Source: Lacinutrix sp. WUR7 (lineage in GTDB: Bacteria > Bacteroidota > Bacteroidia > Flavobacteriales > Flavobacteriaceae). From it: a stretch of DNA of 64,000 nt. Positions 9,386 through 34,879 of this stretch are shown one piece after another. The position numbers and the translations under genes were made by a program. Under the pieces are notes generated by a model. The model was given only the letters and a program-made list of their open reading frames with translations. It was not told the DNA's origin and did not search any database. Location of the stretch: assembly GCF_016864015.1 (NCBI RefSeq), contig NZ_CP045067.1, positions 655,001-719,000 on the forward strand. Direction: 5' to 3'. The number at the start of each line of letters is the position of its first letter. Position 1 is the stretch's first letter.

Positions 9386-10339
9386 ATGAAGCATCAAACT
9401 TTTTATAGCCGCGGAAAATTATTACTTACTGGAGAATATGTAGTTCTAGATGGTGCTTTAGCACTTGCCGTACCTACAAAATTCGGACAGAGTTTAGTTG
9501 TTGAAGAAATAGAAGCACCTACAATTACCTGGAAAAGTTTCGATGAAAAGAAGCAGGTTTGGTTTGAAGCAGAATTTCATTTTGAGAACAATGAGATTTC
9601 TCTACATACTCAAAATGACAACGAGATTTCTAATAGACTTTTAGAAATCCTTCAAGCAGCTCAAGAACTTAATCCGCAGCTTTTAAAAGACAAGAAAGGC
9701 TTTAAAATAACTACGCTATTAGAATTCCCAAAAAACTGGGGACTTGGCACATCTTCTACGCTAATCCATAATATTGCGAGTTGGGCAAATGTAGATGCAT
9801 ACCAATTATTAGAGAAAACCTTCGGTGGAAGCGGTTATGATATTGCTTGTGCACAAAACGATTCGGCAATTACGTATCAATTGCATAATAGTGCGATTTC
9901 TAGACAAGCTCGAAACGACAAACGCACCGTAAATCCAATTTCTTTTAATCCTTCATTTAAAGAACATTTATATTTTGTGCATTTAAACAAAAAGCAAAAT
10001 AGTAGAGATGGTATTGCGCAATACAAAAAGAACAACTTTAATCTAGAAATAGCTCTTGCAGAAATAGATGCAATAACCAAAGACATGATTACTTGTAAGA
10101 CGCTGGATGCTTTCGATATTCTAATAGAAAAGCATGAACAAATCATTTCAGAAATCATACACTTAAAACCTGTTAAAGAAGTTCTTTTTAACGACTTTAA
10201 AGGAAGCATTAAAAGTCTTGGTGCTTGGGGAGGAGATTTTGTTTTGGTGAGTTCTAAAACCAATCCGACAGCATACTTTAAGAATAAAGGTTTTGATACT
10301 ATTTTAGCCTTTGATGAAATGGTTGCAAGTATTTATTAA
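9386..10339 (+). CDS. GYDIA-type GHMP kinase (mevalonate-kinase-like)
   Basis: A 317-aa small-molecule kinase of the GHMP superfamily. The N-terminus (FYSRGKLLLTGEYVVLDGALALAVP) is the usual GHMP substrate-binding start. The ATP loop reads WGLGTSSTL, a form of PxGxGxSS, at about residues 117-125. GGSGYDIACA is the signature that gives the GYDIA group its name. A C-terminal GAWGGDF segment matches GHMP motif 3. Context with HMG-CoA reductase suggests a mevalonate or phosphomevalonate kinase step, but the exact substrate of this group is not settled from sequence. Confidence 0.85.
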   Translation: MKHQTFYSRGKLLLTGEYVVLDGALALAVPTKFGQSLVVEEIEAPTITWKSFDEKKQVWFEAEFHFENNEISLHTQNDNEISNRLLEILQAAQELNPQLLKDKKGFKITTLLEFPKNWGLGTSSTLIHNIASWANVDAYQLLEKTFGGSGYDIACAQNDSAITYQLHNSAISRQARNDKRTVNPISFNPSFKEHLYFVHLNKKQNSRDGIAQYKKNNFNLEIALAEIDAITKDMITCKTLDAFDILIEKHEQIISEIIHLKPVKEVLFNDFKGSIKSLGAWGGDFVLVSSKTNPTAYFKNKGFDTILAFDEMVASIY

Positions 10340-19568: not shown

Positions 19569-19748
19569 TTAGTTAATTTTCATATTAACATCTTCTGCCT
19601 CAAAGTCGAATTTCTTAAGGTATGGTCTAAACTCGACTAAACCTTTTTCAAATGCACTAGTTATTGGCGATTCACTAATATAATCTATACAAGAATTTTC
19701 TGTATTTACTTTTTCAAAATCTTGAGAATTTGTTGATTGAGATAACAT
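19569..19748 (-). CDS. Possible small 59-aa acidic protein
   Basis: An ATG at 19748 opens a 59-codon frame (starts MLSQSTNSQDFEK, ends AEDVNMKIN) rich in Glu, Asp, Asn and Ser with a single Cys. It is 52 bp downstream of the pseudo-histidine-kinase gene on the same strand. The composition (SPITSAFEKGLVEFRPYLKKFDFEAED) looks like protein rather than noise. A 20-bp near-identical direct repeat links the end of the kinase gene to the region just before this start. Function unknown; it may be the last gene of the sigma54-linked operon. Confidence 0.45.
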   Translation of the reverse strand: MLSQSTNSQDFEKVNTENSCIDYISESPITSAFEKGLVEFRPYLKKFDFEAEDVNMKIN

Positions 19749-19804
19749 ATCTATTTAATTTTATTTAGTCCATTTATTATATTCATCTATTTAATTGTAT
19801 TTAG
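19749..19804. repeat. 20-bp direct repeat, 36-bp period
   Basis: Two copies (19749-19768 and 19785-19804) differ at one base. The second covers the stop codon of the kinase gene and the first ends at the start codon of the 59-aa frame. It looks like a local slippage duplication. Confidence 0.65.
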
Positions 19805-21645
19805 AGAGTAGTAGGTAAAACCACTTTAAAAATAGAGCCACTTTTAACACTGCTATTAACAGTTATCATCCCATTTAAGTTATCTACCGCATTTTTAACA
19901 ATATAAAGACCTAAACCATGCCCAGGCTCTTCATACTTGTTAGCTCTGTAATACAAATCATAAATTTTATTAATATTATTTTTATATATACCAACGCCAT
20001 TATCTTCAATGCTAATCTCCACTTCCTCTAGCGATGTTTTTACTTTAATATTTACGAAAGATTTTTCGTTTTCTTTTTGCTCTTTAGAGTATTTTATAGC
20101 ATTGTTAATTAAATTTTGAAGAATAGAATCTATCATTTCCGGATTTGAATTAAATCCAAAATCATCTACAACATCCACATGAAACTTTATGTTCTTAAAT
20201 TTACTAGCACCATTTAGAGACACTAGCGTACTCTTAATAGTTTCAGAAAAATCAATTTTTTTTATTTCTTTTTTCTTAACCTTAACTTTAGATACTTGAG
20301 AAAGGTTTTCTGAGAGTTCCTTTCCGTTTTTTATAATAGGATCTAACATTCCTATTAAAAGAGCTAATCTGTCCTCGTCTGGCTCTTCTTTTAGCAAACT
20401 AAGCGCTTCTTCTATAGAAGATATTGGCGCTTTAATATCTTGAGCAGAACGACATAAAAACAACTCTAGCTCTTCGGTTTTTCTTTTCAGTTTATTTTCT
20501 AGAGATTTACGATGTGTTATTTCCACCATCATTGCGCAATAAAAATCATTTTCACCTACACTCCCATTGCTCAATGCAAACTCTACCGGAAATTGCTCTC
20601 CGTTTTTACGCAAACAACACATTTCTACTATTTCAACATTCTGCTTATTCTTTATTTGCTGTACTGCTCTTAACAATTCTTTTATATTACCATTTCTGTA
20701 TTTTTTAGACATTAAAACAGTTAATGATCTACCAATTATTTCTTTCTCTTTATATCCAAAAGCAGCCTCTGCTCCCTTATTCCATTCTGTAACATTACCT
20801 TTATCATTTGTTACTACAATCACCCCAACATTAATAGACTTATAGATGGTTCTAAATTTAGCCTCACTATTGATAAGGTTTTCACTAACCCCTTTAAACT
20901 TCGTGATTTCATGCAAAGCAATGGTTGAAGAGACAATGGCACCCAAACGGTCATAATTAGGAGAAACTATGGCAGAAAAGAATATTTTTTTTCCGTTGGA
21001 ATCAAAATCATATAACTCAAACTTGTGTGTTAATTTATCGGTATAGACTTTATCTACATTTTTTTTAAAGGATTCGAAATTTACAGGAATAAAATAATCA
21101 TAGATATACGTATTAATTAATTCTTCAATTTCTTTATTACAAAAAGACTTATTTGCATTTAAAATTTTACCATGTCTTGAAACCGTAAAGGCATGGAAAG
21201 GCATTTCTTTTAAAAAACTCTCATTTAGTAACTGACGCTGTAAAAGTGCTTCATTATCGATATAGTACCTTGTAACATCCTTATAAATAGACAGGTACCT
21301 TAAAGCCTTTTCTCCATTATTTTGCATAGGTATAATGGTGGTGTCTAACCAAAACATTTTTCCTGTAGCGGATACATCTTTTAAAATACCACTCCATTTA
21401 TTCCCCATTTTAATGGTTCTCCACAAGTTTTTATATTTTTTTTCGGCGTGTAGAGGAGACCTTAACAACTCGTGTGTTTCACCAATAAGCTTATTAGTAT
21501 TACATTCTAAAATATCACAGAATGCTTGATTTGCGAATTCAATTCTTCCAAATGAATCTGTTAAAGTAACTACAGAGTTCTCGATAAAATCATTAAGCAC
21601 GTTCTCATTAAATGTATTTGGTAGTTTATATTTAATTGCTTCCAT
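19801..21645 (-). CDS. Triple-PAS histidine-kinase-like protein without the phospho-acceptor histidine
   Basis: A 614-aa cytoplasmic protein with no membrane helix. PAS domains lie at about 15-130, 145-250 and 262-380, then a dimerisation helix and a HATPase_c domain. In the H-box, where this family reads S-x-H-D-L-K-x-P, the sequence is RSAQDIKAPISS, so the phosphorylated His is Gln402 (codon at 20440-20442). The ATP site looks whole: N-box NLINNAIKYS (510-519), G1 DNGVG (548-552), G2 GHGLGL (575-580). It may thus bind ATP and signals but not autophosphorylate at the usual site. It overlaps the preceding small gene by 14 nt, showing coupling. PAS1 begins ENSVVTLTDSFGRIEFAN, like a redox or ligand PAS. 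Confidence 0.85.
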   Translation of the reverse strand: MEAIKYKLPNTFNENVLNDFIENSVVTLTDSFGRIEFANQAFCDILECNTNKLIGETHELLRSPLHAEKKYKNLWRTIKMGNKWSGILKDVSATGKMFWLDTTIIPMQNNGEKALRYLSIYKDVTRYYIDNEALLQRQLLNESFLKEMPFHAFTVSRHGKILNANKSFCNKEIEELINTYIYDYFIPVNFESFKKNVDKVYTDKLTHKFELYDFDSNGKKIFFSAIVSPNYDRLGAIVSSTIALHEITKFKGVSENLINSEAKFRTIYKSINVGVIVVTNDKGNVTEWNKGAEAAFGYKEKEIIGRSLTVLMSKKYRNGNIKELLRAVQQIKNKQNVEIVEMCCLRKNGEQFPVEFALSNGSVGENDFYCAMMVEITHRKSLENKLKRKTEELELFLCRSAQDIKAPISSIEEALSLLKEEPDEDRLALLIGMLDPIIKNGKELSENLSQVSKVKVKKKEIKKIDFSETIKSTLVSLNGASKFKNIKFHVDVVDDFGFNSNPEMIDSILQNLINNAIKYSKEQKENEKSFVNIKVKTSLEEVEISIEDNGVGIYKNNINKIYDLYYRANKYEEPGHGLGLYIVKNAVDNLNGMITVNSSVKSGSIFKVVLPTTL

Positions 21646-22045
21646 AAAAATTATTTATAGTTTCTACACAATACGCTTTTGCAGATTCTAGATTATTAAA
21701 CACACTAAAAGGTGTGCTAGGCTCATAAATTCTTTTATAAGAAGCTACCACTAATTTAATTCCAATAGTATTAAAAACATAAGCTTCAGACATCCTAAGT
21801 TTCACTAAGGTTGGTGAATTCGCCAATAAATTAGCAGATTCACGCGTAAAAGTCCCTTGAGAATCTCTTGTATCTATTAAAAAAGGCATAGGTTTTCCTT
21901 TACATAATTTATCTATTGCATGTATAAATAATGCTACGCTTTCTGTTCCAAATTTATAATTAGTACTATTGTTTCTAAACTGACAGTAAAGAATACCACT
22001 ATCTGTCCAAAATTTCGAATTTCCTATTTTGATTATATTATCCAT
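21632..22045 (-). CDS. Small STAS-like protein, paralogue B
   Basis: I choose the ATG at 22045 (137 aa, MDNIIKIGNSKFW), 1 bp after the stop of the upstream paralogue; a longer frame to 22093 would overlap that gene. The product has an alternating alpha/beta pattern with KFWTDSGILYCQF near the N-terminus and PMPFLIDTRDSQGTFTRES in the middle. It resembles the SpoIIAA/STAS-like small proteins (DUF7793 type) common in Flavobacteriaceae, though I cannot confirm the family. Its neighbour shares the KFWxDxxIxYC motif, so the two are tandem duplicates. Position before a pseudokinase suggests a protein-protein switch. Confidence 0.65.
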   Translation of the reverse strand: MDNIIKIGNSKFWTDSGILYCQFRNNSTNYKFGTESVALFIHAIDKLCKGKPMPFLIDTRDSQGTFTRESANLLANSPTLVKLRMSEAYVFNTIGIKLVVASYKRIYEPSTPFSVFNNLESAKAYCVETINNFYGSN

Positions 22046-22046
22046 A

Positions 22047-22469
22047 CTAATTATCACTGTTTTTAGAATTAAAAACCGCATAATTTTGATCACTATATTG
22101 TATGGCTGAATTTGAATTTTTGAAAATTAAATTTGGCACATTAGAATCACTAAAGAGGACATAAAATGAAAGAAGAATTTTTTGCTTATAGCTTTTTACT
22201 AAAAATGCTTTTGACAAGACAGCATTTTTTATTTTAGGATTGTTAGATAAAAGTTTAAATAGCTTAACTAAAAGAGGATTATCAATCTCTTTAAAATTAA
22301 ATATTATAGGCAAATAAGTGCCATTTGATAATTTAGAAATAGATTCGTGAAATAAATTCTCAAAATCATTATAGGAATAATTTACTTCAGAATTATTATA
22401 CAACTTACAATAAATAATATTTTGGTCTACCCAAAATTTAATATTATTGATTCGTATTTCGTTTTTCAT
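22047..22469 (-). CDS. Small STAS-like protein, paralogue A
   Basis: About 140 aa starting at the ATG at 22469 (MKNEIRINNIKFWVDQ); an ATG three codons earlier (22478) is also possible. It shares with the next gene the KFWVDQNIIYCKLYNN N-terminus and the alpha/beta layout, but its middle is more diverged (YLPIIFNFKEIDNPLLVK). It is the first gene after a sigma54-like promoter at 22493-22509 and two dyads, so it probably heads the controlled operon. No catalytic motif is seen; a regulatory binding role is a guess. Confidence 0.62.
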   Translation of the reverse strand: MKNEIRINNIKFWVDQNIIYCKLYNNSEVNYSYNDFENLFHESISKLSNGTYLPIIFNFKEIDNPLLVKLFKLLSNNPKIKNAVLSKAFLVKSYKQKILLSFYVLFSDSNVPNLIFKNSNSAIQYSDQNYAVFNSKNSDN

Positions 22470-22492
22470 TATTATCATTTTGAAAAACTAAA

Positions 22493-22509
22493 TTCAATAG
22501 GAGTGCCAA
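22493..22509 (-). promoter_or_regulatory. Sigma54-type -24/-12 promoter candidate
   Basis: On the minus strand it reads TTGGCAC-TCCTA-TTGAA. The -24 element is a full match, the spacer is the required 5 nt, and the -12 element has TTG but A instead of C. Predicted start near 22482, just before the first small paralogue. The upstream gene encodes a sigma54 activator. Confidence 0.65.
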
Positions 22510-22592: not shown

Positions 22593-22614
22593 AACTAACG
22601 ACATACCGTTAGTT
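22593..22614. promoter_or_regulatory. Dyad A, candidate activator-binding site
   Basis: Perfect inverted repeat AACTAACG-N6-CGTTAGTT, centred about 97 bp upstream of the -24 element. On the minus strand it matches dyad B at 16 of 19 positions. This fits an upstream activating sequence for the sigma54 activator encoded next to it. Confidence 0.65.
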
Positions 22615-22634: not shown

Positions 22635-22650
22635 TAACGGTATTCCGTTA
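22635..22650. promoter_or_regulatory. Dyad B, candidate activator-binding site
   Basis: Perfect inverted repeat TAACGG-TATT-CCGTTA, 39 bp centre-to-centre from dyad A and about 136 bp upstream of the -24 element. Its last three bases are the stop codon of the activator gene. It shares AACTAACGG on the minus strand with dyad A. Confidence 0.62.
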
Positions 22651-25600
22651 GTTGCTTTTGGTTTTTGAAATCCCTAATTTAGTCATTCGATCTCGCAAAG
22701 TACTAGGCTTTAATTCTAGCATAACTGCTGCTCCTTTTGGTCCGCTAATTTTCCAATTACATTGCTCAAGTACCTGAACAATATGATTACGTTGCACAGA
22801 GTCTAAAGATAAATCTTGGTTGTTAATTGGTTTTACTTTTTGTGTAGAAGATTCAAAACCTGGAATCACTAATGTTTCTTTACTTGATAATATAGAAGCT
22901 CGTTCTATTAAATTTTCTAATTCTCTAATATTCCCTGGCCAATTATATGCTCTCAATTGACTCATAGCATCATCTGTAATATATTTAATGCTCTTTCCGT
23001 AAGCCTTATTAAATTTATCTACAAAATGCTCTACCAACAAAGGAATATCATCCTTTCGTTCTCTTAATGGCGGAACTTCAATTGGAAAGACATTAAGTCT
23101 AAAAAATAAGTCTTCCCTAAATTGTTTTTTCTCAACCTCCTCTTTAAGGTTTCTATTTGTTGCCGCAATTACCCTAACGTCTAACTTCTTTAATCCGCTA
23201 CTTCCACCAACGACCTCAATTTCTCCTTCTTGTAAAAATCTTAATATTTTGGGCTGCATATCTAAAGGTAACTCGCCAATTTCATCTAAAAATAAAGTAC
23301 CACCATCTGCTAATTCAAATTTTCCAACTTTATCATTTATCGCTCCTGTAAACGAACCCTTTTTATGACCAAACAACTCACTCTCCATTAACTCTCTAGG
23401 TATTGCAGAGCAGTTCACTTTAATTAATGGCTTATTATTACGCGAACTAGTATTATGCACTGCTCTAGCTAACAATTCTTTTCCAGTACCAGATTCTCCT
23501 AACAATAATACCGTAGCGGTTGTTGGTGCTACTTTTTCAACTTCTGTTAACACGTTACTAAATGCTTCACTTCCGTACACCATCTCCTCATAGTTAAATA
23601 CTAAATCTAACTCATTACGCAAATAAACATTTTCCTGCTCTAACTGCTCTTTTAAGGTATTTAACTCTCTATTAGCTTCTGTAAGTTTCTGATTCGTAAT
23701 TACTATTTTATTATCTGCTATTTTACGTTCAGAGCTTTCAATCATTAAAGACACAATACTAGCTATTGAGGTAACAAAGCTTTCTTCATCCGCACTAAAC
23801 ACTCTGTTTTCTAACTTACTCTCAAAACTAATAATACCATAATAATTATCACTACCATGAATTAACACATCAATTCTAGAAGATATTTTATTAGGAATAT
23901 AAAACTGTGTTGCAAAAGCTTTAGTTATCGGATTAGAATTTACGTCCGCTATATTAATACTGTTTTTATTCTTAAAAGCATTAAAATAATTTGGGAATTT
24001 CTCTTCATCTATCAATAACTCATATTCCTTAAATACATCATCTGCAGCATTATAAAACAACCTACTAGCCAGTTCGGATTGGTTCTTTTTATATTCCCAA
24101 ATAGTCACAATATCTACATCCAAAGCCTCAGCAGATGTAACTGCAATCTTTTTTAATGAAGAATTAAAATCCTCTCCAATAAGCGCAGCTAGTTTTAAAA
24201 TAACATCCTTTTTCTGCGTTGATTTTACAGCAATATCTTCTAGTGCTTTTTTAACTTTCTCCTCTTCTGAAACATCTTTAATTGTTGCAAATATAGCTAC
24301 AGTTTCTCCCTCATCGTTTTTTATAATCCCTGTTAAAAATGAAGCTACAAAATTACTTCCATCTTTTTTAACAAATTCTAATTGAAAGGATAGCGCTTCG
24401 CCTTTTGCTACCTCACTCTTAATTCTCAACATATTCTCACGGTCCTTCTCTTGCGCAAATGGATATGGCAATTCTAGACCTATAAGTTCATTTTCCGAAT
24501 AGCCTAAAATATCACATAGTGAATCGTTTACTTTTAATATAGCTCCCTCTAAGTCTACTATAAGCAAACCTTCCTGCATAGACATTACAAGGTTATCTGA
24601 AAACTCATTGGCTCTTTTTAAGTCTAACTCTGTTTTTTTACGTTCGGTAATATCTTGCGTGGTTCCTATTAATTTTTCAGCATTACCATTGCTATCAAAA
24701 ACCAATTCACCAATTCCATGTACCCATACCTCTTCTTTATTATCTACTTTTAAAATTCGATATTCTTTATTAAACTTTTCATGATTTTTTAAAATATTAA
24801 TTTCAAAATAGTTTGTTATTGCTTCTTGGTCTTCTGGGTGAACAATAGAAATCCAGCTTTCCACGCTTTTAACAAAAGATTTTTTGACCCCGAAAATCTC
24901 ATCCAATACATCTGAACTTTCCCAAGTAGCCTTTTTAACATCTACGGAATAGGTACCAATATGAGCTACTATTTGAGATTGCCTTAAATTATATTCACTC
25001 TCCAAAAGCTGTACTTCTGACTGTTTACGTTGGGATATATCTTGAATAGTTCCAAAAAACTCAATAGACTGATCTGCATGTTTAATAACTTGACCTAAAG
25101 CATGAATCCATTTTAATTGCTTTTTCTTTTTTGTTATTACTCTAAATTCTAAATCAAATGCTTCTCCTGTTTCCACACTCTTTTTAAACATTTCTTTATC
25201 TAAAACCGCATCCTCTGAATGAATAATATCTGCCCAATCCTTAAAGAATAAATCCACATTTTCATCTATCTCTAAAATTTTTCTAAAAGCTGTGGAAGCT
25301 TCTATTTTTTGTGTTTTCAGATTTAAGCTATAGCTACCAATTTTTGCTATTTTTTGAGCTTCTAACAATGATCTTTCGTTTTCTTGCAGTTTTTTTTCTG
25401 CTTGCTTACGTTGTGATATATCTTGTATTGTAGCAATATTAGCTATAATTTCTCCTTTATTATTTTTAACAAATGAAGCTGACATTAAAACAGGAAATCG
25501 CTCTCCGTTTTTTCGCATTAAAGTTAACTCGACTTTACTATATTCCCCTTTTAGTATGTTTGCATAGGTTTCTTGAATTTCATCCTGCTTTTCTGGTGGC

Positions 25601-27903
25601 CAATAATTAAACGGGGCTTTTTGACCAACTAATTCTTCTTTTGTAAAACGCAACATTTTACAAAGCGCTGGATTTGCTTCTATTTGCACACCTTCTAAAT
25701 TCACTACAGACAAACCTTCGTTTAAATTTAGAATAAGGTTTTCAGAAAAATCTTTAGCAAGTTTTAAATCTATTTCAGCCTTTTTACGTTCTGTAATATC
25801 TTGTACCGTAGAGAAATTTGCTGTTTTTACGCCATTATCATCATAAATGCTAGAAATTAAAACATGTACAGGAAAACGTTCGCCGTTTTTACGCATATAG
25901 ACGTTTTCGTATTCCTTTTTATTAATATTTTGTGATAATAATTTATAGCGCTCACTATTCTCTTTTTCAAATTCTGATGGTGAATACGGGTATGGACGCT
26001 TCACTCCTATTAATTCTTTTTCTGTAAAACCTGTCATTTTACAAAAAGATGGATTTACACTAATTATTTCTGATTCTAAATTTATAGCTACTAAGCCTTC
26101 CTGCATTCCATTTAAAAGACTAGAAGAGAATTCATTGGCTTTTTTTAAGTCTAATTCAATGTTTTTACGCTGGGTAATATCTTGAATAGTACCAATCATT
26201 TTTGCAGGATTGTCTTTATCATCAAAAATCAATTTCCCAATACCATGTACCCAAAACTCTTCTTTAGAATCTTGCTTTAAAATCCTGTACTCTTTGTTAA
26301 ATTTCTTATTATTTATAACACAAAATTCAAAATAGCTGGAGATTTCTTCTCTATCCTCTGGATGAATAAGTTCTGTCCAGCCCTCCATCGTTTTAGCGTA
26401 CGCTTTATCGATACAAAAAATATTATATAAAAACGCAGACCCTTCCCAAGTCATTGTTTTTAAATTTATAACATAAGATCCTATATTACCAACTATTTGA
26501 GATTGTCTTAAATGGTATTCGCTTTCCTGTATTTTTATTTCTGCTTTTTTACGCTCTGTAATGTCCCGTGCAATAGCAAGGATTTTACCATCCTTTTGCA
26601 ATTTTGCAGATACTTCAACTTCATATAAAGAATTGTCTTTTCGTCTAAATTTTCTGGGAAAAACAATAGCTTCCCCTTGGAGTAATTTTCCATGATTCTC
26701 TGAATCTTGAACAAACTCTCCTATATTGAAATCATAAATATTTAATTTCAAAAACTCCTCATCGGTATACCCTAAGTTAGTATAAGAAGCTTTATTATAA
26801 TCATATATTGTTCCATCTAAAGAGTACGTTATTATAGCGTCACTAGCTTGATCTACTAATGCTTTGTATGATTCTTCTTTTTTAATAATTTCATTTACAA
26901 TTCTAATCTTCTCAAGCGCAATATTAACTAAACTCACAGTAAAATTAAGCTCTCTAATATCACTAAAAGAAGGTGCGCTAATAGACTTGCTGTAAATAGC
27001 AAAAGTACCTATAACCGTATTATTTTTGGAAAAAATTGGAATAGACCAACAAGATTTTAAATCGTATTCTAATGCAATATCTTTATAATCTTTCCATAAA
27101 ACATCGGTGCTTATATCTGACACAACAACCGGTTTTTTAATAAATGCTGCTGTACCACAAGAACCTACATTCGCTCCAATAGGAATTCTTTTTATAGATA
27201 AACTGTATGCTTCTGGCAATGAAGGTGAAGATACTAAATCAAGATGTATACCGTCTGGATCTAACAAACTAATCGATCCATAATAATCTGGATATATAGA
27301 CTGATAGTTTAAAAGTAATCGATCAAAGATTTCATGTAAAGGTGTGTTTACTACAATTAAATCTAGTATTTCATTTTTATGTATTAATAATCGTTGTGCT
27401 TTTTCTCGTTCTAGAACCTCACTTTCAAGGTCTATTTTCTTTTGTTCAAGCTTACTAATTAGTCGCTTACTATAAAGCTTTAAAACTTCTTCTTCACTAA
27501 ATTCTACATTTTTTACAACTTTTTCTTCTGGTTTATTTTCAGCAAAAACCTCTTGAATTACAGATAGTATTTTATTTTGATCTGCTGGTTTTCTTAAAAA
27601 TTGAACCGCTCCCAATTTTAGTGCAAAATCTTCATCAAGTGCTTCTGTATATGTAGAGGTGTAAAAAACAAAAGGAATATCCTTAAATAATTCTTCTTTT
27701 TTACAAGCCTGACAAAATAGATAGCCATCCATAACAGGCATTAAAATATCTGAGATTATTAGGTCTACTTTATTTATATGTAATTTTTCTAAACCTTCTT
27801 TACCGTCTCTAGCTTCTACAACTAAATAGCCTTCTTCTTCCAGTATAACTCTTAGTAAATATAGATTTTCAAAAGTATCATCTACTATTAATATAGTTTT
27901 CAT
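22648..27903 (-). CDS. Giant sigma54-dependent activator, REC-GAF-PAS(7)-GAF-AAA+-HTH
   Basis: A 1751-aa soluble regulator; usual sigma54 activators have 400-550 aa. Order: receiver domain 1-120 with phospho-Asp52 (ISDILMP); GAF about 175-335; seven PAS/PAC units about 340-1215, several ending DITERKK or DISQRKQ; second GAF about 1225-1385; short coiled coil; AAA+ about 1440-1680 with Walker A GESGTGKE (1469-1476), GSFTGA sigma54-contact loop (1516-1521), Walker B TLFLDEIGE and GNIRELEN; Fis/NorR-type HTH about 1700-1750 (KGAAVMLELKPSTLRDRM). GAFTGA has Ser for Ala, a known tolerated variant. PAS2-PAS3 and PAS6-PAS7 are a duplicated pair. It starts 7 bp after the single-domain response regulator. 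Two dyads at its 3' end are likely its own sites. Confidence 0.92.
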   Translation of the reverse strand: MKTILIVDDTFENLYLLRVILEEEGYLVVEARDGKEGLEKLHINKVDLIISDILMPVMDGYLFCQACKKEELFKDIPFVFYTSTYTEALDEDFALKLGAVQFLRKPADQNKILSVIQEVFAENKPEEKVVKNVEFSEEEVLKLYSKRLISKLEQKKIDLESEVLEREKAQRLLIHKNEILDLIVVNTPLHEIFDRLLLNYQSIYPDYYGSISLLDPDGIHLDLVSSPSLPEAYSLSIKRIPIGANVGSCGTAAFIKKPVVVSDISTDVLWKDYKDIALEYDLKSCWSIPIFSKNNTVIGTFAIYSKSISAPSFSDIRELNFTVSLVNIALEKIRIVNEIIKKEESYKALVDQASDAIITYSLDGTIYDYNKASYTNLGYTDEEFLKLNIYDFNIGEFVQDSENHGKLLQGEAIVFPRKFRRKDNSLYEVEVSAKLQKDGKILAIARDITERKKAEIKIQESEYHLRQSQIVGNIGSYVINLKTMTWEGSAFLYNIFCIDKAYAKTMEGWTELIHPEDREEISSYFEFCVINNKKFNKEYRILKQDSKEEFWVHGIGKLIFDDKDNPAKMIGTIQDITQRKNIELDLKKANEFSSSLLNGMQEGLVAINLESEIISVNPSFCKMTGFTEKELIGVKRPYPYSPSEFEKENSERYKLLSQNINKKEYENVYMRKNGERFPVHVLISSIYDDNGVKTANFSTVQDITERKKAEIDLKLAKDFSENLILNLNEGLSVVNLEGVQIEANPALCKMLRFTKEELVGQKAPFNYWPPEKQDEIQETYANILKGEYSKVELTLMRKNGERFPVLMSASFVKNNKGEIIANIATIQDISQRKQAEKKLQENERSLLEAQKIAKIGSYSLNLKTQKIEASTAFRKILEIDENVDLFFKDWADIIHSEDAVLDKEMFKKSVETGEAFDLEFRVITKKKKQLKWIHALGQVIKHADQSIEFFGTIQDISQRKQSEVQLLESEYNLRQSQIVAHIGTYSVDVKKATWESSDVLDEIFGVKKSFVKSVESWISIVHPEDQEAITNYFEINILKNHEKFNKEYRILKVDNKEEVWVHGIGELVFDSNGNAEKLIGTTQDITERKKTELDLKRANEFSDNLVMSMQEGLLIVDLEGAILKVNDSLCDILGYSENELIGLELPYPFAQEKDRENMLRIKSEVAKGEALSFQLEFVKKDGSNFVASFLTGIIKNDEGETVAIFATIKDVSEEEKVKKALEDIAVKSTQKKDVILKLAALIGEDFNSSLKKIAVTSAEALDVDIVTIWEYKKNQSELASRLFYNAADDVFKEYELLIDEEKFPNYFNAFKNKNSINIADVNSNPITKAFATQFYIPNKISSRIDVLIHGSDNYYGIISFESKLENRVFSADEESFVTSIASIVSLMIESSERKIADNKIVITNQKLTEANRELNTLKEQLEQENVYLRNELDLVFNYEEMVYGSEAFSNVLTEVEKVAPTTATVLLLGESGTGKELLARAVHNTSSRNNKPLIKVNCSAIPRELMESELFGHKKGSFTGAINDKVGKFELADGGTLFLDEIGELPLDMQPKILRFLQEGEIEVVGGSSGLKKLDVRVIAATNRNLKEEVEKKQFREDLFFRLNVFPIEVPPLRERKDDIPLLVEHFVDKFNKAYGKSIKYITDDAMSQLRAYNWPGNIRELENLIERASILSSKETLVIPGFESSTQKVKPINNQDLSLDSVQRNHIVQVLEQCNWKISGPKGAAVMLELKPSTLRDRMTKLGISKTKSN

Positions 27904-27910
27904 CCCTTAA

Positions 27911-28279
27911 TTATGCTTTAAATATACACTCCATTTGTTTCACAAAAGTATCTGGATTAATAGGTTTCTCTATATATCCATTTGCGCCAACTTCCATTGC
28001 TTTTTCTTTATCTCCTCCCATAGCATATGATGTCACTGCAATAATAACAGTACTTTTTGGCAAACCATTACACCTTAATTTACTGCATATTTCATAACCA
28101 TCCATATCTGGTAATTGAATATCTATCAAAATAATTTCAGGATGTTTTTCATGTGCTAAATGTAATCCATCCACTCCATTATAAGCCTTAATTACATCAT
28201 AATTACTACTTGTAAGCAAATACGAAAGCATATACATATTTTGTTCGTTATCTTCTATGATTAAAATGGCAGGCTTCAT
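27911..28279 (-). CDS. Single-domain response regulator (DivK/CheY-like)
   Basis: A 122-aa receiver domain alone, started at the ATG at 28279 (MKPAILIIEDNEQN); a longer frame to 28306 adds nine unlikely residues. Acidic pocket EDN, phospho-Asp53 (LIDIQLPDMDG), Thr in VTSYAM and Lys in YIEKPIN are all present, so it should be active. With no output domain it probably shuttles phosphate or docks, as DivK-type proteins do. It lies between the CHASE kinase (69 bp after it) and the giant activator (7 bp before it), a good place for a phosphorelay step. Confidence 0.9.
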   Translation of the reverse strand: MKPAILIIEDNEQNMYMLSYLLTSSNYDVIKAYNGVDGLHLAHEKHPEIILIDIQLPDMDGYEICSKLRCNGLPKSTVIIAVTSYAMGGDKEKAMEVGANGYIEKPINPDTFVKQMECIFKA

Positions 28280-28348
28280 TTTTACGTGTATAAAATTTAA
28301 TATCAATAAGTTAAGCGCTAAATATATTAAAATTGGTCTTAAAAATAA

Positions 28349-30505
28349 TTAATAATTAAATTTATTATTACAGGAATACTCTATCGGAAACCGAATTATA
28401 AAGTTACTACCTTTTCCTAGTTCACTTTCTACTTGAATTGTGCCTCCTAATTTTTCGATTAAATTTTTACTAATAGCCAATCCAAGACCTGTACCCTCAT
28501 GCTTTCTACTAAGACCGCCTTCTAACTGAATAAAAGGCATAAATAATTTATTAATATCCTTTTCGTTTATTCCAATTCCTTGATCTATAATTTGAGTTAT
28601 AAGCACATCATCTTTAACATTTACTTTAATTTGTATACCTCCTTTTTCAGAAAACTTAATGGCATTAGAAAGTATGTTTAATAAAATCTGTTCAATACGC
28701 CTTTCATCACTTACTAATGTAATATCAAAATTAGAAATTTCTGTATGTAATTCAATCCCTTTTTTTGAAGCCTGTGGCATTAAAAAGTCTATTGTTTTTT
28801 CTAATGTTGTTAGATAATCGAAAGGATAAAAGGAAACTCTTAACTTACCTGCTTCTATTTTAGAAATATCTAAAATATCATTAATTAAACCTAATAAATG
28901 TGAACCGCTATCTTTTACCATGGAGAGTTGCTTTTTTTGTTCTGTATTTAACGGCCCTGCCAATTCTTTTAATAATATGCCTGTAAACCCAATAATAGAG
29001 TTCATTGGTGTTCTCAACTCATGCGACATGGTTGCTAAAAATGCGGACTTCATTAAATCTGCTGACTGCGCTTTCACCTTTTCTTTTTCTAATTCGGCAG
29101 ATTGGAGATTTATATCTTCTAAAAGATTTAATAAAGCTTCTTTACTATCATTAAGCTCCTCGGTTCTTAAGCCTACTAATTTCTCTAGATTATTCTTATA
29201 ATTTAATAATTCTTTTTCGTTTTGAATTCTTTCTGTAATATCTGAAGCAGTACCAATATACCCATAAATATTGTTTTGTGCATCTATTAGCTTGCTGCCT
29301 TTAACAATAAGCCAAGTGGTATTTCCTTTTTTATCTAAGAACTTCAGTTCCGAATTAAAATCACTTCCATATACTACTGCCTGCTGCCATTCATGCATTA
29401 CCCTATCTTTATCTTCTGGATGTATGGCATTTATCCAGCCAGAACCCATTGCCTCTTTAAATGTCATACCAGAATATTTCATCCATTCGTCATTTACATA
29501 ATTAATCATTCCTTCATTATCTGAAGAAAAGATAGCTACTTGGGCATTAGAAGCTAAACTTCTAAATAATGCTTCGCTTTTTTTAACTTTTTCGGATGTG
29601 ATGTCATAAACTAACTTTAAGTGTTTTTCCTGTTCTGAAAGTTTCGAAGTAATCAAATTATTTAACCGAGCAGATCGCCCTGCAAAAAACCACACGATCC
29701 AACCACTAAAAAAGGCTAATACAACACCACCCGCAGAGGACCATATTGCCGTATTAAATGTTTTTTCTAATGGCACAACATACAGCTTCCATTCTCCTAT
29801 AGACATTTCTACAGGTATCGCATATTCTTTATAAGGAGAGATATCATTTTCTAAAAAAAAATCCTCATTCCCCGTTTCAGGGTTTACCCTAGACAACTGA
29901 TAAATAAAACGATTTTCTTCCGAATTTTCAACAACTAGCTCACTAAAAAATGTAGAAATTTTGGTAACCACCGCAGAAAACCCAACAAATTTATCATCTA
30001 TAAAAATAGGCTGCCTACTCACCATACCAACACCGCCTTGCTTTAGATTAACTGGGCCTGCGATAAAAAAATCTCTTCTTTTTATGGTAGTGACTGATCC
30101 ACTTCGTGCTTCGGGACTTGTTAGAATATTAAAACCAATAACTTCATTATTCTCTAAAGGATAAACATGCGTAATAAATCCCTTACCATCTACTAATTCT
30201 ACAACATCAAAATACTTACTTCTACCTAGTAATTCTGCGGCTATGTTATCAAAATCTTCAGGAATTCCATTTCTTTCCACAATATATTCTAATAATTTTG
30301 TAGCAGAATAACTGTACATGACTAGCGATTGCAGTTTTTCTTTTATTAAACTTGCTTGATTGTTTATTTCTCGCTTTTGCTCATTATTGTTTATCACATA
30401 CTCCTGATAAGCAACATATTGTGTGGTAAAAAGCAGTATAAAAAAAACAAAGAGTCCTAAAACCAAAGGTTTTTTAAAAAAAAGAGGTGAATTACTTTTG
30501 TTCAT
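28349..30505 (-). CDS. CHASE-PAS membrane histidine kinase
   Basis: A 718-aa inner-membrane kinase. Helix 1 at 13-30, periplasmic CHASE domain 55-245 (ITHVYPLENNEVIGFN, GPVNLKQGGVGMVSRQPIF), helix 2 at 252-274, PAS 310-430, coiled coil 435-485, HisKA with intact H-box MSHELRTP (His495), and HATPase_c with ILLNILSNAIKFS, DQGIGI and GTGLGL. There is no C-terminal receiver, so it must pass phosphate to a separate regulator; the next gene encodes one. CHASE domains sense small extracellular ligands, identity unknown here. Its PAS is closely related to PAS 3-5 of the neighbouring 1443-aa protein, which suggests exchange of modules inside the locus. Confidence 0.93.
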   Translation of the reverse strand: MNKSNSPLFFKKPLVLGLFVFFILLFTTQYVAYQEYVINNNEQKREINNQASLIKEKLQSLVMYSYSATKLLEYIVERNGIPEDFDNIAAELLGRSKYFDVVELVDGKGFITHVYPLENNEVIGFNILTSPEARSGSVTTIKRRDFFIAGPVNLKQGGVGMVSRQPIFIDDKFVGFSAVVTKISTFFSELVVENSEENRFIYQLSRVNPETGNEDFFLENDISPYKEYAIPVEMSIGEWKLYVVPLEKTFNTAIWSSAGGVVLAFFSGWIVWFFAGRSARLNNLITSKLSEQEKHLKLVYDITSEKVKKSEALFRSLASNAQVAIFSSDNEGMINYVNDEWMKYSGMTFKEAMGSGWINAIHPEDKDRVMHEWQQAVVYGSDFNSELKFLDKKGNTTWLIVKGSKLIDAQNNIYGYIGTASDITERIQNEKELLNYKNNLEKLVGLRTEELNDSKEALLNLLEDINLQSAELEKEKVKAQSADLMKSAFLATMSHELRTPMNSIIGFTGILLKELAGPLNTEQKKQLSMVKDSGSHLLGLINDILDISKIEAGKLRVSFYPFDYLTTLEKTIDFLMPQASKKGIELHTEISNFDITLVSDERRIEQILLNILSNAIKFSEKGGIQIKVNVKDDVLITQIIDQGIGINEKDINKLFMPFIQLEGGLSRKHEGTGLGLAISKNLIEKLGGTIQVESELGKGSNFIIRFPIEYSCNNKFNY

Positions 30506-30547: not shown

Positions 30548-33500
30548 TTATTTGTCATTTTTTAACTGCAACTCTTTAATAATACCTTTCAACTCTTTCA
30601 TTTTTAATTCCCTCCCAACAAATAATTTATTCATACGTTCTAATTGATTATTTTTTAAATGCACCTCTTCGGTTCTTACTTCAATTAGTTCTTCCAGATT
30701 ATTTCTGTATTTTTCTAATTCTGCTTCGGCATTTTTCTTTTCTGTTATATCCAAAACAGTGAACAAAACGTGTCCTTCATTATATAACTGAAGCGCTTGT
30801 AAAGATATTAATACAAAAAGCTCTCTTCCCGCTTCCATTATGTATTTTAATTCCATATTGGTTACATACCCTTTTTCACTAAATTGCCCCCATAGCTTAT
30901 TTTCATTTTCTTTATTATCTGGACTATCTAGATCGAACAATACTATTTCTTCTGCTGTTTTCCCTAACATGTTTTCTCTTTCAAACCCGACAATGTTTGC
31001 AAACGCTTTGTTTACTTCAATAATCTTTTTTTCTTTATTAAGAATAGCTTTCCCTACAACATTGGATTCAAAAGCTTTAGAGAATTTTTCTTCATTTTCT
31101 TTTAATGCTATTTCTGCTTTATCTTTACTTGTAATATCTATTACGGCAATCAACCAATGAGTTTCGCCTACAATATCAAGGGCTTCAGCAGAAATTGATA
31201 AGATTATTTTCTTTCCACTTGTTAAAGTTCTAGTCATGATTTCATTACTTAAAAAACCATTCTTTAATACTTTTTCTATTAACCTTTCTTTTTGTTCGTA
31301 GTACGCCGAATTGAGCACTTCGACCTTAGTTTCTTTAAAAGATTTACCAATTAAATTCTCTCGAGTGGTTTCAAAAATATTCGCCATAGCCTCATTAACA
31401 TCAATCCTTATTTGATTTTTATTAACAATAGAATAACCAATTATATTTGACTCAAACACTTTAGAGAATTTATCCTCACTCTCTTTTATATTTTGTTCTG
31501 ATTCTATGCGTTCTGAAACGTCCTGCACCAAAGACAAAACAGTTTCTACTTGTCCATCTGGAGATTGTAAAACAGAATTATTCCATTGGCAATAAATCAC
31601 CTTTCCATTTTTGGTATTATTACGATTAATAATCTTGTTGTTTTTTACTATTCCATTCATTAATTGATAAGAAATAATCTCTGTGGATGCATAATCTTCT
31701 TCGTAAACGAGATTTAAATCATTAAAATGTTTTCCTACAACTTCCTGCTCTTTCCAACCAAATATATTTTCAGCTTGTACGGACCAGTTATAAATAATTA
31801 AATTCTCATCCCATTCAATTACTGCTAACGGAGAGTTATTTAAATGCATTGTAAGACGTTGATGTGCCTTCCTGATTTCTTCGTCTATTTTTTTACGCTC
31901 GGTTACATCTCGAATAATTCCTATTAAAAATTGATTACCCGCAACATCAATAAATCTTGTTTTTTTTGTTGAAATTATTCTTGATCCTTTCCCCTTTAAT
32001 GTTAAAGTTTCTTCACTAACACTCTCCATACCAGTCACTAGAACTTGCTTATCTCTTTGTAAAAAAAGATCTCTTTCCTTTACAGAAACACTTTCTGCTA
32101 AAGTTTTACCAATTGCAGCAGCCCTTTCTACATTAAAAATAGAACAAAACGCATCATTGACCAATAGTATTCTACTTTGCTCATCTTTCACAAAAACAGG
32201 ATCACCAATGTTGTTTAGTATGTTATCTAGATACTTTTCGTTTTTAATGATTTGATCTTCCACTTCTTTACGTTCGGTAACATCGATTAGCGTTCCTATA
32301 TAACCATACAACTCATTGTTAGCATCATACAAACCAGTAGCTTTAGCAGAAAGCCATGTGGTTACACCTTCTCGATTTAGAAATCTTAAATCTGTTCTAT
32401 ATTCGGTTCCTGAAGAAATAGCTTTTTGCCATATATCAATAACTCTATCTTTATCTTCTGGGTGTATCGCGTTTTGCCAACCAAGACCTAAAGCTTCATC
32501 AAAAGGGATTCCAGAATATTTTATCCATTCTTGATTTACATAATTGCAAGCACCATCTTTGTTGGTCTGAAAAATTCCAACAGGTGCATTAGATGATAAT
32601 CGTCTAAATAATTGCTCACTATTTATTAACTTTTCTTCAGATTCTTTACGTTCTGTAACATCTACAATCGTTCCTATATAACCATACAATTCATTATTAT
32701 GATTAAATAAGCTAGTTGCTTTTGCGGAAACCCATTTTGTTTCTCCTTTTTTATTTAGCAATCTAAATTCGGAAACTAAGTCAACCCCAGTAGAAACTGC
32801 TTGTCCCCATTCTCCCATAATCCTATCTTTATCCTCTGGGTGAATAGCATTGGACCAACCAAAACCTAAGGACTCCTCAAAGGTCATTTCTGAATATTTC
32901 ATCCATTCTTCATTAACATAATTACAAACACCATCTTTATCTGTTTGATAAATTCCAACCGGTGCATTAGATGTTAATCGTTTAAATAACTGCTCACTAT
33001 TTATTAATTTTTGTTCTGCTTTTTTCTTTTCTGTAACATCAATAGCCATTCCTATATAGCCATATAAATTATTTTGTGCATCGTAGGTTCCTATCGTTTT
33101 AACAGACACCCATACGACCTTATTATCTTTATGGAGAAACCTAAAATCGGTTTCAAGTTCACTTTCTCCAGATAAAACATATACCTCCCATTCTTTAAGA
33201 ATTCTTGCTTCATCATCGGGATGAATAGCTTTGGCCCATCCAGGCCCCATAGCATCTTCATAGGACAACCCTGCATATTCTAACCATCTTTCGTTTACAT
33301 AATTACAAGAACCTTCTGCATCTGTTTGGTAGATCCCAGCTGGTGCTTTAGATGTTAAACGTTTAAATAACTGCTCACTGTTTCTTAACTTATCTTCAGC
33401 TTCTTTACGGGCAGTAATATCTTTAGCAACTACACCTAATGCTATAGGGTTGTCCGTTACCTTATCTTTAATTAAGAAACCAGACATTTCCGTAGGGATT

Positions 33501-34879
33501 AAATCTCCTGTTTTTAAATTTTTAAAGTGTGTTTCTCCGCTCCATCCATTAGATTCAAAAATACTAGGCATGTGCTCATTGGCAATCCTATCCCGATAAT
33601 CTTCGGGAAAAAAATCAGAAATAGAAGCTGGCATTTTTTCATCCGGCCCTAATCCCATTAATTGCCTACCATTATCATTTAAATAAAGAGGCTCTCCTTC
33701 TAAAGTTGCTAAACCAATAAAATCCTCATTAGTCTCTATTAAAGACAGTAACATTTGATTATTAGCATCTGTTTTTTTCTGTTTGGAGATATCTGTATAA
33801 TAGATTATCAATCCGTTTGGAGATGGGTAAATTCTATTCTCAAACCATTTATCTAGCGGTTCATAATAATCATCAAAGTATATCGTTTCTTGTGTTTCAA
33901 CAGCTTTATAATACGCCTTATAAAAAGAACGCCCTACACCTTCCGGAAACTCGGTCCAAATGTGTTTTCCTATTAATGATTCTGAAGATCGCCCCAAAAG
34001 TTCCGCAGCTTTTTTATTAACATACGTATAACACCAATTAGTGTCTAGAGATATAAAACCACCTGAAATGCTATTTAAAGAAGTTTCTAATTGAGAGGTT
34101 AAATTTTTCTCCAATTCTTGCTTTTCAGTCTTTAGTTGTAAATATTTTTTTTCATACCTCAATATGGAAAAAACATTACGCTCTTGATTGGCAATAAAAG
34201 AAGTATTACTTTTCTCATTATCTATATACTTTAAATAAACATATAGAATGACAGAAAATACTAGCGCAGCAATAACTTTACCTATAAGGTTACCTACTAA
34301 TAAATTATAAAAATCAGCAGTTCCCAAGTAGAGCGTTGTATTAAAAATAAACGCGTCAAAAACAAAAACTACTAATAGTGAAATAAAGAGTGTAAAAAAG
34401 AAAAATTGCTTTTTGATTATTGAAATCAAAAATTGATAGATTATTACTAGACATAGAAAATCTAGAAACAACAAGACTGTACCAGTAATGAAATACTTAT
34501 CGTCTACTAAAAAAGCAAAGGTAGATTCTATATCCACCAAGTTTTCCGAATGCATAATACCAAACAATGCGGACAAAAGGAGATTGGAAATAATAATTCC
34601 TAAAATAAGAGCTCTAGCACTAGTAACACCTTCTTTAATATAAATCAATAAGACCGCAAATAAAAGCGAACTAAATATAATAACGGATGTTGGATAAATT
34701 ATTAGCTCATCTAAAACAGTAAAGCTTATCATGTCCCCAGAAAGGGCTTGTAAATATCTAACAGCTCCTAAAAAAAGATATAGAGGAGCTAATCCTAATA
34801 CGTTTCTAAATTTAAATAATAAAAGAATACTAGAAGATATGAGTAAAAACTCAATCAGTATTATAGTATATATACTCAT
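30548..34879 (-). CDS. Membrane sensor with about nine PAS domains and no output domain
   Basis: A 1443-aa protein. Residues 1-230 hold about seven hydrophobic helices (a MASE-like membrane sensor, exact family not recognised), then a short coiled coil, then nine PAS/PAC units of about 125 aa to residue 1390. PAS 3, 4 and 5 are near repeats (each with NSEQLFKRL or similar, NAPVGIYQT, AIHPEDKDRI, YGYIGT and DVTERK). PAS 8 and 9 form another pair. The chain ends in a coiled coil (NNLEELIEVRTEEVHLKN) with no kinase, cyclase, phosphodiesterase or receiver domain. The CHASE kinase 42 bp downstream carries a matching helix (NNLEKLVGLRTEEL), so the two may form a complex. No frameshift joins them. 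It is the first gene of the signalling block. Confidence 0.88.
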   Translation of the reverse strand: MSIYTIILIEFLLISSSILLLFKFRNVLGLAPLYLFLGAVRYLQALSGDMISFTVLDELIIYPTSVIIFSSLLFAVLLIYIKEGVTSARALILGIIISNLLLSALFGIMHSENLVDIESTFAFLVDDKYFITGTVLLFLDFLCLVIIYQFLISIIKKQFFFFTLFISLLVVFVFDAFIFNTTLYLGTADFYNLLVGNLIGKVIAALVFSVILYVYLKYIDNEKSNTSFIANQERNVFSILRYEKKYLQLKTEKQELEKNLTSQLETSLNSISGGFISLDTNWCYTYVNKKAAELLGRSSESLIGKHIWTEFPEGVGRSFYKAYYKAVETQETIYFDDYYEPLDKWFENRIYPSPNGLIIYYTDISKQKKTDANNQMLLSLIETNEDFIGLATLEGEPLYLNDNGRQLMGLGPDEKMPASISDFFPEDYRDRIANEHMPSIFESNGWSGETHFKNLKTGDLIPTEMSGFLIKDKVTDNPIALGVVAKDITARKEAEDKLRNSEQLFKRLTSKAPAGIYQTDAEGSCNYVNERWLEYAGLSYEDAMGPGWAKAIHPDDEARILKEWEVYVLSGESELETDFRFLHKDNKVVWVSVKTIGTYDAQNNLYGYIGMAIDVTEKKKAEQKLINSEQLFKRLTSNAPVGIYQTDKDGVCNYVNEEWMKYSEMTFEESLGFGWSNAIHPEDKDRIMGEWGQAVSTGVDLVSEFRLLNKKGETKWVSAKATSLFNHNNELYGYIGTIVDVTERKESEEKLINSEQLFRRLSSNAPVGIFQTNKDGACNYVNQEWIKYSGIPFDEALGLGWQNAIHPEDKDRVIDIWQKAISSGTEYRTDLRFLNREGVTTWLSAKATGLYDANNELYGYIGTLIDVTERKEVEDQIIKNEKYLDNILNNIGDPVFVKDEQSRILLVNDAFCSIFNVERAAAIGKTLAESVSVKERDLFLQRDKQVLVTGMESVSEETLTLKGKGSRIISTKKTRFIDVAGNQFLIGIIRDVTERKKIDEEIRKAHQRLTMHLNNSPLAVIEWDENLIIYNWSVQAENIFGWKEQEVVGKHFNDLNLVYEEDYASTEIISYQLMNGIVKNNKIINRNNTKNGKVIYCQWNNSVLQSPDGQVETVLSLVQDVSERIESEQNIKESEDKFSKVFESNIIGYSIVNKNQIRIDVNEAMANIFETTRENLIGKSFKETKVEVLNSAYYEQKERLIEKVLKNGFLSNEIMTRTLTSGKKIILSISAEALDIVGETHWLIAVIDITSKDKAEIALKENEEKFSKAFESNVVGKAILNKEKKIIEVNKAFANIVGFERENMLGKTAEEIVLFDLDSPDNKENENKLWGQFSEKGYVTNMELKYIMEAGRELFVLISLQALQLYNEGHVLFTVLDITEKKNAEAELEKYRNNLEELIEVRTEEVHLKNNQLERMNKLFVGRELKMKELKGIIKELQLKNDK

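Follow-up and report, generated by a model that had tools for sequence, protein, structure and literature searches.

A probable pseudo-histidine kinase with glutamine at the phosphorylation site in Lacinutrix

What can a histidine kinase do when it has no histidine to phosphorylate? The question is raised by a minus-strand gene of Lacinutrix sp. WUR7, which lies in the stretch of 64,000 nucleotides analyzed here (the window; its genome is G000 in our numbering) and whose domains and neighbors are collected in Table 1. A sequence-only reading had claimed that Gln stands at the place of the phospho-accepting His, and this was borne out: residue 402 of the translated ORF is Gln, the CAA codon is read at 20442-20440 on the minus strand as claimed, and the H-box (FLCRSAQDIKAPIS) holds no phospho-accepting His. 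The N-box (QNLINNAIKYS), the G1-box (DNGVGI) and the G2-box (GHGLGLYIV), which had been described as intact, are all found, and Pfam recognizes three PAS domains and HATPase_c, the latter with 77 bits. The nearest solved kinase cores of residues 374-611 are 6azr, 5uht, 2c2a and 3dge (E 1.6e-19 to 1.2e-18), the first three of which we take to be HK853, and the nearest PDB entry of PAS1 is 3ewk (entry title 'Sensor protein'), presumably the flavin PAS of MmoS. Our preferred reading, with a probability of about 0.6, is a pseudo-histidine kinase that selection has retained: its two-component output would have been taken apart before two Lacinutrix species diverged, and it would now act through contact with another protein.

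Table 1. Features of the locus in the window, from the head of the gene row to the regulator stump; domain borders of the kinase are approximate.
Feature	Position	Strand	Remarks
Sensory protein, head of same-strand gene row	30548..34879	-	1443 aa; PAS-like repeats by eye
PAS histidine kinase, intact His (MSHELRTPMNS), presumed input to activator	28349..30505	-	718 aa
Single-domain receiver, by resemblance; candidate alternative regulator	27911..28306	-	131 aa, upstream of activator
REC-GAF-multi-PAS-sigma54 AAA+-HTH activator, presumed for the operon	22648..27903	-	1751 aa
Presumed activator-binding palindrome ACGGAATACCGT	22637..22648	-	
Presumed activator site, second copy (imperfect), ACGGTATGTCGT	22598..22609	-	
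Sigma54 -24/-12 element TGGCACTCCTATTG	22495..22508	-	TGGCAC-N5-TTG
DUF7793 protein A	22047..22478	-	143 aa; Pfam
DUF7793 protein B	21632..22045	-	137 aa, counted from ATG 22045; 14-base overlap with the kinase start
Pseudo-histidine kinase	19801..21645	-	614 aa, ATG start; ORF, box and Pfam reading
Domains of the pseudo-histidine kinase			PAS1 ~20-130; PAS2 ~140-255; PAS3 ~260-380; DHp with Gln402 ~381-470; HATPase/CA ~471-614
CAA codon, Gln402 at the place of the phospho-accepting His	20440..20442	-	
C-terminal stump of cognate single-domain response regulator	19569..19748	-	59 aa; match to residues 100-155 of the 163-aa frame of G400

Two further observations on the protein were set aside. 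Pfam HisKA gave no match in the Gln402 protein at E<=0.1, and this was dropped as a sign of degeneration; it is uninformative because the His-bearing orthologue of G400 is likewise unmatched (at E<=0.01), and three other orthologues fall below the cut-off. An AlphaFold model of the kinase, made from an alignment of two sequences, had a pLDDT of 33.

Gln402 is common to the window's genome and Lacinutrix himadriensis E4-9a (G397), whose kinases are 92% identical and both carry codon CAA. His stands at the site in 20 of the 22 genomes whose orthologue spans residue 402, the other two being the Gln pair; the count is made up of 17 His orthologues aligned at first, three added (G088, G200 and G232) and the two with Gln. 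The nearest His-bearing orthologue, that of G400, is from the same genus, 71% identical, and has codon CAT. Orthologues were searched in 397 genomes of the family (20 at E<=1e-60), in seven genomes of the genus (four found), in 395 relatives that were mostly the same set (20 at E<=1e-50) and in the genera of G029 (1 genome, 1 match), G346 (10, 3), G070 (1, 1) and G110 (5, 1). A partial archaeal match (L041, 26%) and the paralogues of the window's own genome were not counted as orthologues, and the L. himadriensis orthologue, present as L040 and L038 on one contig, was counted once. Among the 18 matches within the own genome, 15 other kinase genes align at residue 402 and all have His; L016 stops short of the site and appears to be part of L003's gene, and L014 appears to be part of L011's.

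According to the sequence-only reading, His in the orthologues would suggest a strain mutation or a sequencing error. The His orthologues do exist, but the implication is wrong, because the two species share the Gln, the altered helix around it, the loss of the regulator and the purifying selection that followed. Since it is also present in L. himadriensis, Gln402 is evidently neither a sequencing error nor a strain mutation. His was probably ancestral at residue 402 and would have been lost before the split of the two Gln species, because the codon, the helix changes and the edge of a nearby deletion are common to both.

That deletion concerns the regulator. Directly downstream of the kinase, a single receiver of ~150 aa is found in 18/18 loci with an intact kinase (G400, G091, G294, G024, G130, G110, G302, G107, G321, G038, G306, G175, G070, G108, G233, G088, G200 and G232); the receiver of G400 was checked by Pfam Response_reg, and G038 was scored as intact, its 612-aa frame holding the kinase, although a stop lies close to where its match begins. 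At the locus of the Gln402 kinase the intact cognate regulator is missing and a stump is all that stands there, with ~98 N-terminal codons lost and the portion with the phospho-accepting Asp gone. In both G000 and G397 a deletion of ~300 bases precedes the stump, whose first residue is the Met in 'IYMLSSS', and the edge of the deletion looks alike in the two species. Altogether the kinase module is changed or missing in nine loci, eight of which are without an intact regulator there: remnants are present in G000, G397 and G168, and no regulator was found in the ~15-17 kb examined around each of the loci of G345, G346, G403, G406 and G008. The ninth, G029, has a PAS-only protein, yet the regulator is retained. 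In a tree built from the AAA+ end of the activator in 26 genomes (without G233 and G232) the Gln pair forms one branch (92/89), and the kinase change corresponds to five events on the best tree and at least two by well-supported branches. A comparison of kinase loss with regulator loss gave a median p of 1, on few pairs: 2 if the well-supported branches are taken and 5 if all are.

The stump may possibly be a retained small protein in itself. Between the two species 13 of its 59 codons have a residue change, against a neutral expectation of 18.8 (P 0.008 given an open frame), and the open frame survives in 25% of neutral simulations. Against the stump as a gene, a similar leftover is found in G168 (L084:9755-10167), from a gene broken further upstream; there no kinase gene separates DUF7793 B from what is left of the broken regulator, of which the C-terminal tail (YLNRFDSEAEDV) is surprisingly well conserved. 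A mirror image is seen in G198 (L066:6224-7363), where His and the downstream regulator are kept and the ATP site carries N515Y, D548Y, G550S and G552T (window numbering); instead of a kinase, this orthologue may be a phosphatase or a phosphotransfer protein.

Other relatives have dispensed with the kinase module altogether. PAS-only orthologues, without the residue-402 region, stand beside the DUF7793 pair and the activator in five genomes, and their frames end before or at the kinase module: in G345 of the same genus (414 aa), in G029, G346 and G406 (273) and in G403 (265). Pfam finds PAS domains alone in the proteins of G345 and G346. As these frames are conserved (dN/dS among G346, G403 and G406 0.05-0.14, with saturated dS of >2 in two of the three pairs) and no kinase motifs were found in the 1.5 kb downstream in G346, G403, G029 and G345, the PAS half exists as a genuine protein of its own, with no kinase, and the PAS-only relatives suggest that it works without phosphotransfer. 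Within the genus, G345 lacks the kinase module, G168 lacks the whole kinase gene while DUF7793 is kept, and neither the kinase nor DUF7793 was found in G398 or in G399 (a draft, 84% complete); in addition, the kinase frame of G008 is broken.

Because the kinase is dispensable in G345 and G168, the Gln form could represent one step of a gradual loss, in which the regulator was truncated, the kinase became useless, the His was lost and the kinase is disappearing, so that only the PAS/DUF7793 part, or nothing, matters. The missing genes in the genus and, in G008, the broken frame and the lack of a regulator in the ~15-17 kb examined agree with such a decay. We nevertheless consider it unlikely, as the 614-codon frame is intact in both Gln species at a whole-gene dS of ~0.43 and a neutral simulation of the CA stretch gave a stop in 85% of the runs, with 39 changed residues on average in the runs that stayed open against 19 observed. 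The dN/dS values point the same way. With the Gln form found in two species there is one pairwise estimate (Nei-Gojobori pairs, a mean over the entire period since the split), which is 0.08 for PAS1-2, 0.04 for PAS3, 0.10 for DHp (bootstrap 95% 0.02-0.26), 0.15 for CA (0.08-0.23) and 0.15 for DHp and CA together, the last within the range of the neighbors in the same species pair (DUF7793 A 0.22, DUF7793 B 0.16, activator 0.11, coaX 0.19 and omp 0.12). Moreover, the residues of the N-, G1- and G2-boxes are identical in the two species. These results show that the kinase region has been under purifying selection since the two species split, and with the rest of the kinase conserved it therefore probably signals in some other way. 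The earlier proposal, a kinase that binds ATP and is unable to autophosphorylate at the usual residue, thus holds in part: the kinase fold has an intact ATP site, the normal phospho-acceptor is not available, and the protein has been retained by selection. The roles proposed in the same reading, an allosteric partner and a non-phosphorylating switch, are conjectural.

In the Gln pair the regulator-docking surface adjoining residue 402, in the first DHp helix, is altered as well. The 20 His proteins have Leu404 (+2 from the His) in 20/20, Tyr398 (-4) and Gly413 (+11) in 19/20 each, and Ala411 (+9) and Leu414 (+12) in 17/20 each, and the Gln pair carries L404I, Y398C/S, G413E, A411I and L414A. 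The sole residue other than Gly at 413 among the His proteins is an Asp, in the broken gene of G008. In an alignment of 16 His rows (those first used, without G008, G088, G200 and G232) over residues 256-614, 41 columns are invariant and six of them are altered in both Gln proteins (D375E, Y398C/S, H402Q, L404I, A411I and G413E). Five of the six fall in 396-416, a stretch with nine of the 41 invariant columns (hypergeometric P 9e-4), and in CA none of the nine invariant columns is altered in both proteins, with F562 altered in one. When each His orthologue was left out in turn as a control, 13 had no change in 396-416, two had one, and one (G198) had two. The clustering weakens with the number of rows: with 19, all three altered columns fall in the stretch (P 0.013), and with all 20 His rows both of two do (P 0.13), only 13 columns being invariant in the latter case because the G008 gene is cut short. 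The stretch was picked after the alignment had been viewed, and we place weight on the per-site counts.

The altered sites include positions known from other kinases. The specificity residues T250, L254 and A255 of EnvZ are given as +7, +11 and +12 from H243 in PMC2991266, and for DivL PMC4211667 describes two contacts to DivK~P, Gly561 (+11), which was modelled, and Tyr562 (+12), whose Ala mutant loses binding. Gly413 has the same offset as the EnvZ specificity site and the DivL-DivK contact. One could imagine a DivL-like sensor with a new partner, in which the docking face (+9, +11 and +12) would be re-specified for another receiver, either the one at 27911-28306 or the activator's, whose phosphorylation state would control the pseudo-kinase or which the pseudo-kinase would sequester. 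This would fit the position of the changes, the presence of two other receivers and an intact kinase just upstream, and a DHp that is 95.6% identical between the two species. However, 398, 404 and 411, outside the specificity set, are altered too, and counterparts of both receivers are also found beside intact His kinases (e.g. in G400, G130 and G070), so that the upstream receivers did not arrive with the Gln; two sequences are, furthermore, too few for a co-variation test. On balance such a new receiver partner seems quite unlikely to us.

If a receiver is not the partner, the operon itself offers candidates. On the minus strand the order is the 1443-aa protein, the His kinase, the receiver, the activator, a short gap, DUF7793 A, DUF7793 B, the Gln402 kinase and the 59-codon frame. 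That the kinase is encoded with two small proteins behind a sigma54 promoter had been claimed before and was confirmed, with the small proteins being two DUF7793 proteins and a TGGCAY-N5-TTG element occurring in 22/26 activator/DUF7793 intergenic stretches (0.04 expected from mononucleotide shuffles); these represent 24 of the 28 loci studied, without G233, G088, G200 and G232. The element was not found in G130, G302, G008 and the first stretch of G168. For the TGGCAC-N5-TTG pattern alone, 0.9 chance occurrences are expected per window. A palindrome, ACGG-N4-CCGT, is present in 21/26 of the same stretches (0.014 expected), mostly <=15 bases from the activator's stop, and the exact ACGGWATWCCGT occurs once in the 3.99-Mb genome, at 22637..22648. 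The sequence-only reading did not contain the loss of the regulator, the PAS-only relatives, or the neighboring activator and the presumed single site that goes with it.

The activator itself varies. Its open frames range from 729 to 2262 aa between genomes (including G400, L067:3874-10659), with the AAA+ end conserved, and the difference in length looks like a gain or loss of sensory domains. A fused receiver in the activator as the substitute for the lost regulator was considered over 26 activators, where the kinase is lost or altered in 7/12 with a receiver vs. 3/14 without. The idea was dropped as unproven (Fisher p 0.11), with relatives counted repeatedly and receivers also standing beside intact kinases.

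The DUF7793 proteins themselves give a weak STAS-like hint. An AlphaFold model from four sequences has a pLDDT of 61, and in VIA-align this low-confidence model matches RsbS/stressosome STAS proteins over nearly the full length with Z 6.3-7.2, which is in the noise range and tied by crotonase-fold enzymes; the best Foldseek E is 0.08. At E<=10 none of 31 DUF7793 proteins matched a Pfam STAS family, a profile of the 31 against PDB sequences gave a best E of 0.08, to an unrelated entry, and a search of the open-access literature on DUF7793 returned no match. The kinases SpoIIAB, RsbW and RsbT act on STAS proteins. By analogy, the retained GHKL ATPase might act on, or be gated by, DUF7793 in a partner switch, for which the STAS-like match and the frame overlap between DUF7793 and the kinase could be quoted; with a model of that confidence, scores that enzymes of another fold equal and no STAS match in Pfam, we regard it as highly improbable.

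In the preferred reading of a maintained pseudo-kinase acting by contact, the operon would be switched on by the adjacent sigma54 activator, and the PAS domains may sense a redox or metabolic cue, as the nearest entry of PAS1 hints. Driven by PAS and probably by ATP, the DHp/CA dimer would then change, and the signal would be handed to a protein partner by contact rather than by phosphate. Of the possible partners, the operon's own DUF7793 proteins would be the likeliest, since PAS and DUF7793 remain together in relatives without the kinase module; the kinase-DUF7793 link is one of gene order alone, and G168 has DUF7793 without the PAS protein. A bolder version, which we hold to be doubtful, is that a two-component system was turned, at its original locus, into a phosphotransfer-free switch, in which the PAS sensor and an ATP-driven dimer control DUF7793, possibly STAS-like, by contact. 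One genus would then show the stages side by side: a His kinase with its regulator, a Gln kinase with a regulator stump, a PAS-only protein, and DUF7793 alone.

To our knowledge few cases of pseudo-histidine kinases are known, chiefly DivL. This Caulobacter crescentus protein, with Tyr550 for His, resembles the Gln402 kinase, according to PMC4211667, in being multi-PAS, with full DHp and CA, a non-His residue at the phosphorylation site and the other boxes retained (PMC5361649 is a commentary on DivL). The two differ in that DivL keeps its docking surface (Gly561 and Tyr562) and DivK, whereas the Lacinutrix pair has Gly to Glu at +11, Leu to Ala at +12 and a regulator stump; also, the Tyr of DivL is described as conserved across alphaproteobacteria (Ala in one) and Gln402 is found in two species of one genus. 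A ChrS pseudokinase variant of Corynebacterium glutamicum, which according to PMC9491836 has a laboratory frameshift in its CA domain and works with its regulator ChrA via another kinase, shares the trait of an inactivated histidine kinase and still alters signalling though catalytically inactive; in contrast, the Gln402 kinase keeps CA and has lost the His and the regulator. The closest solved relatives of residues 374-611 are HK853-type HisKA/HATPase_c kinases (3dge is HK853 in PMC4211667). Their H-box SHELRTP/SHELRAP with His aligns to SAQDIKAP of the Gln402 kinase, and HK853 has a cognate regulator, RR468, where the Gln402 kinase has a stump.

The pseudo-histidine kinase as a kind is thus already known from DivL, and new here are the Gln residue, the altered docking face with the lost regulator, and the series of states in one genus. 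The Gln form is unreported among the matches listed in the open-access literature on His-lacking or pseudo-histidine kinases and on Lacinutrix histidine kinases. In one clade the phospho-acceptor and the partner regulator have been lost and the docking face has changed, all seen together, and a close His-bearing sister gene, PAS-only relatives and measurable selection on the remainder are also at hand; therefore the role of a sensor kinase without phosphotransfer is testable by allele swaps between close species.

A further observation concerns secreted proteins beside the system. In G400 two presumed secreted-protein genes (signal peptides by eye) lie in the locus between two such promoters, and G168 has them at the same place; the coordinates beside the system are L089:6409-9842 and 9915-10068, L044:10755-14200 and L084:4969-8444. 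One of the families gave a match to the T9SS sorting tail below Pfam's cut-off. In G000 and G397 the secreted-protein genes are outside the locus (G000:C1:3666411-3669841), accompanied by a TGGCACTCCTTTTG element and by palindrome near-copies that have 1 and 2 mismatches and a spacing of 39 bases in each of the two species. Taken singly, each such match is not far from chance for its locus. Because a sigma54-like element and palindrome near-copies sit at the secreted-protein genes too, the activator may drive both these and the DUF7793-kinase operon.
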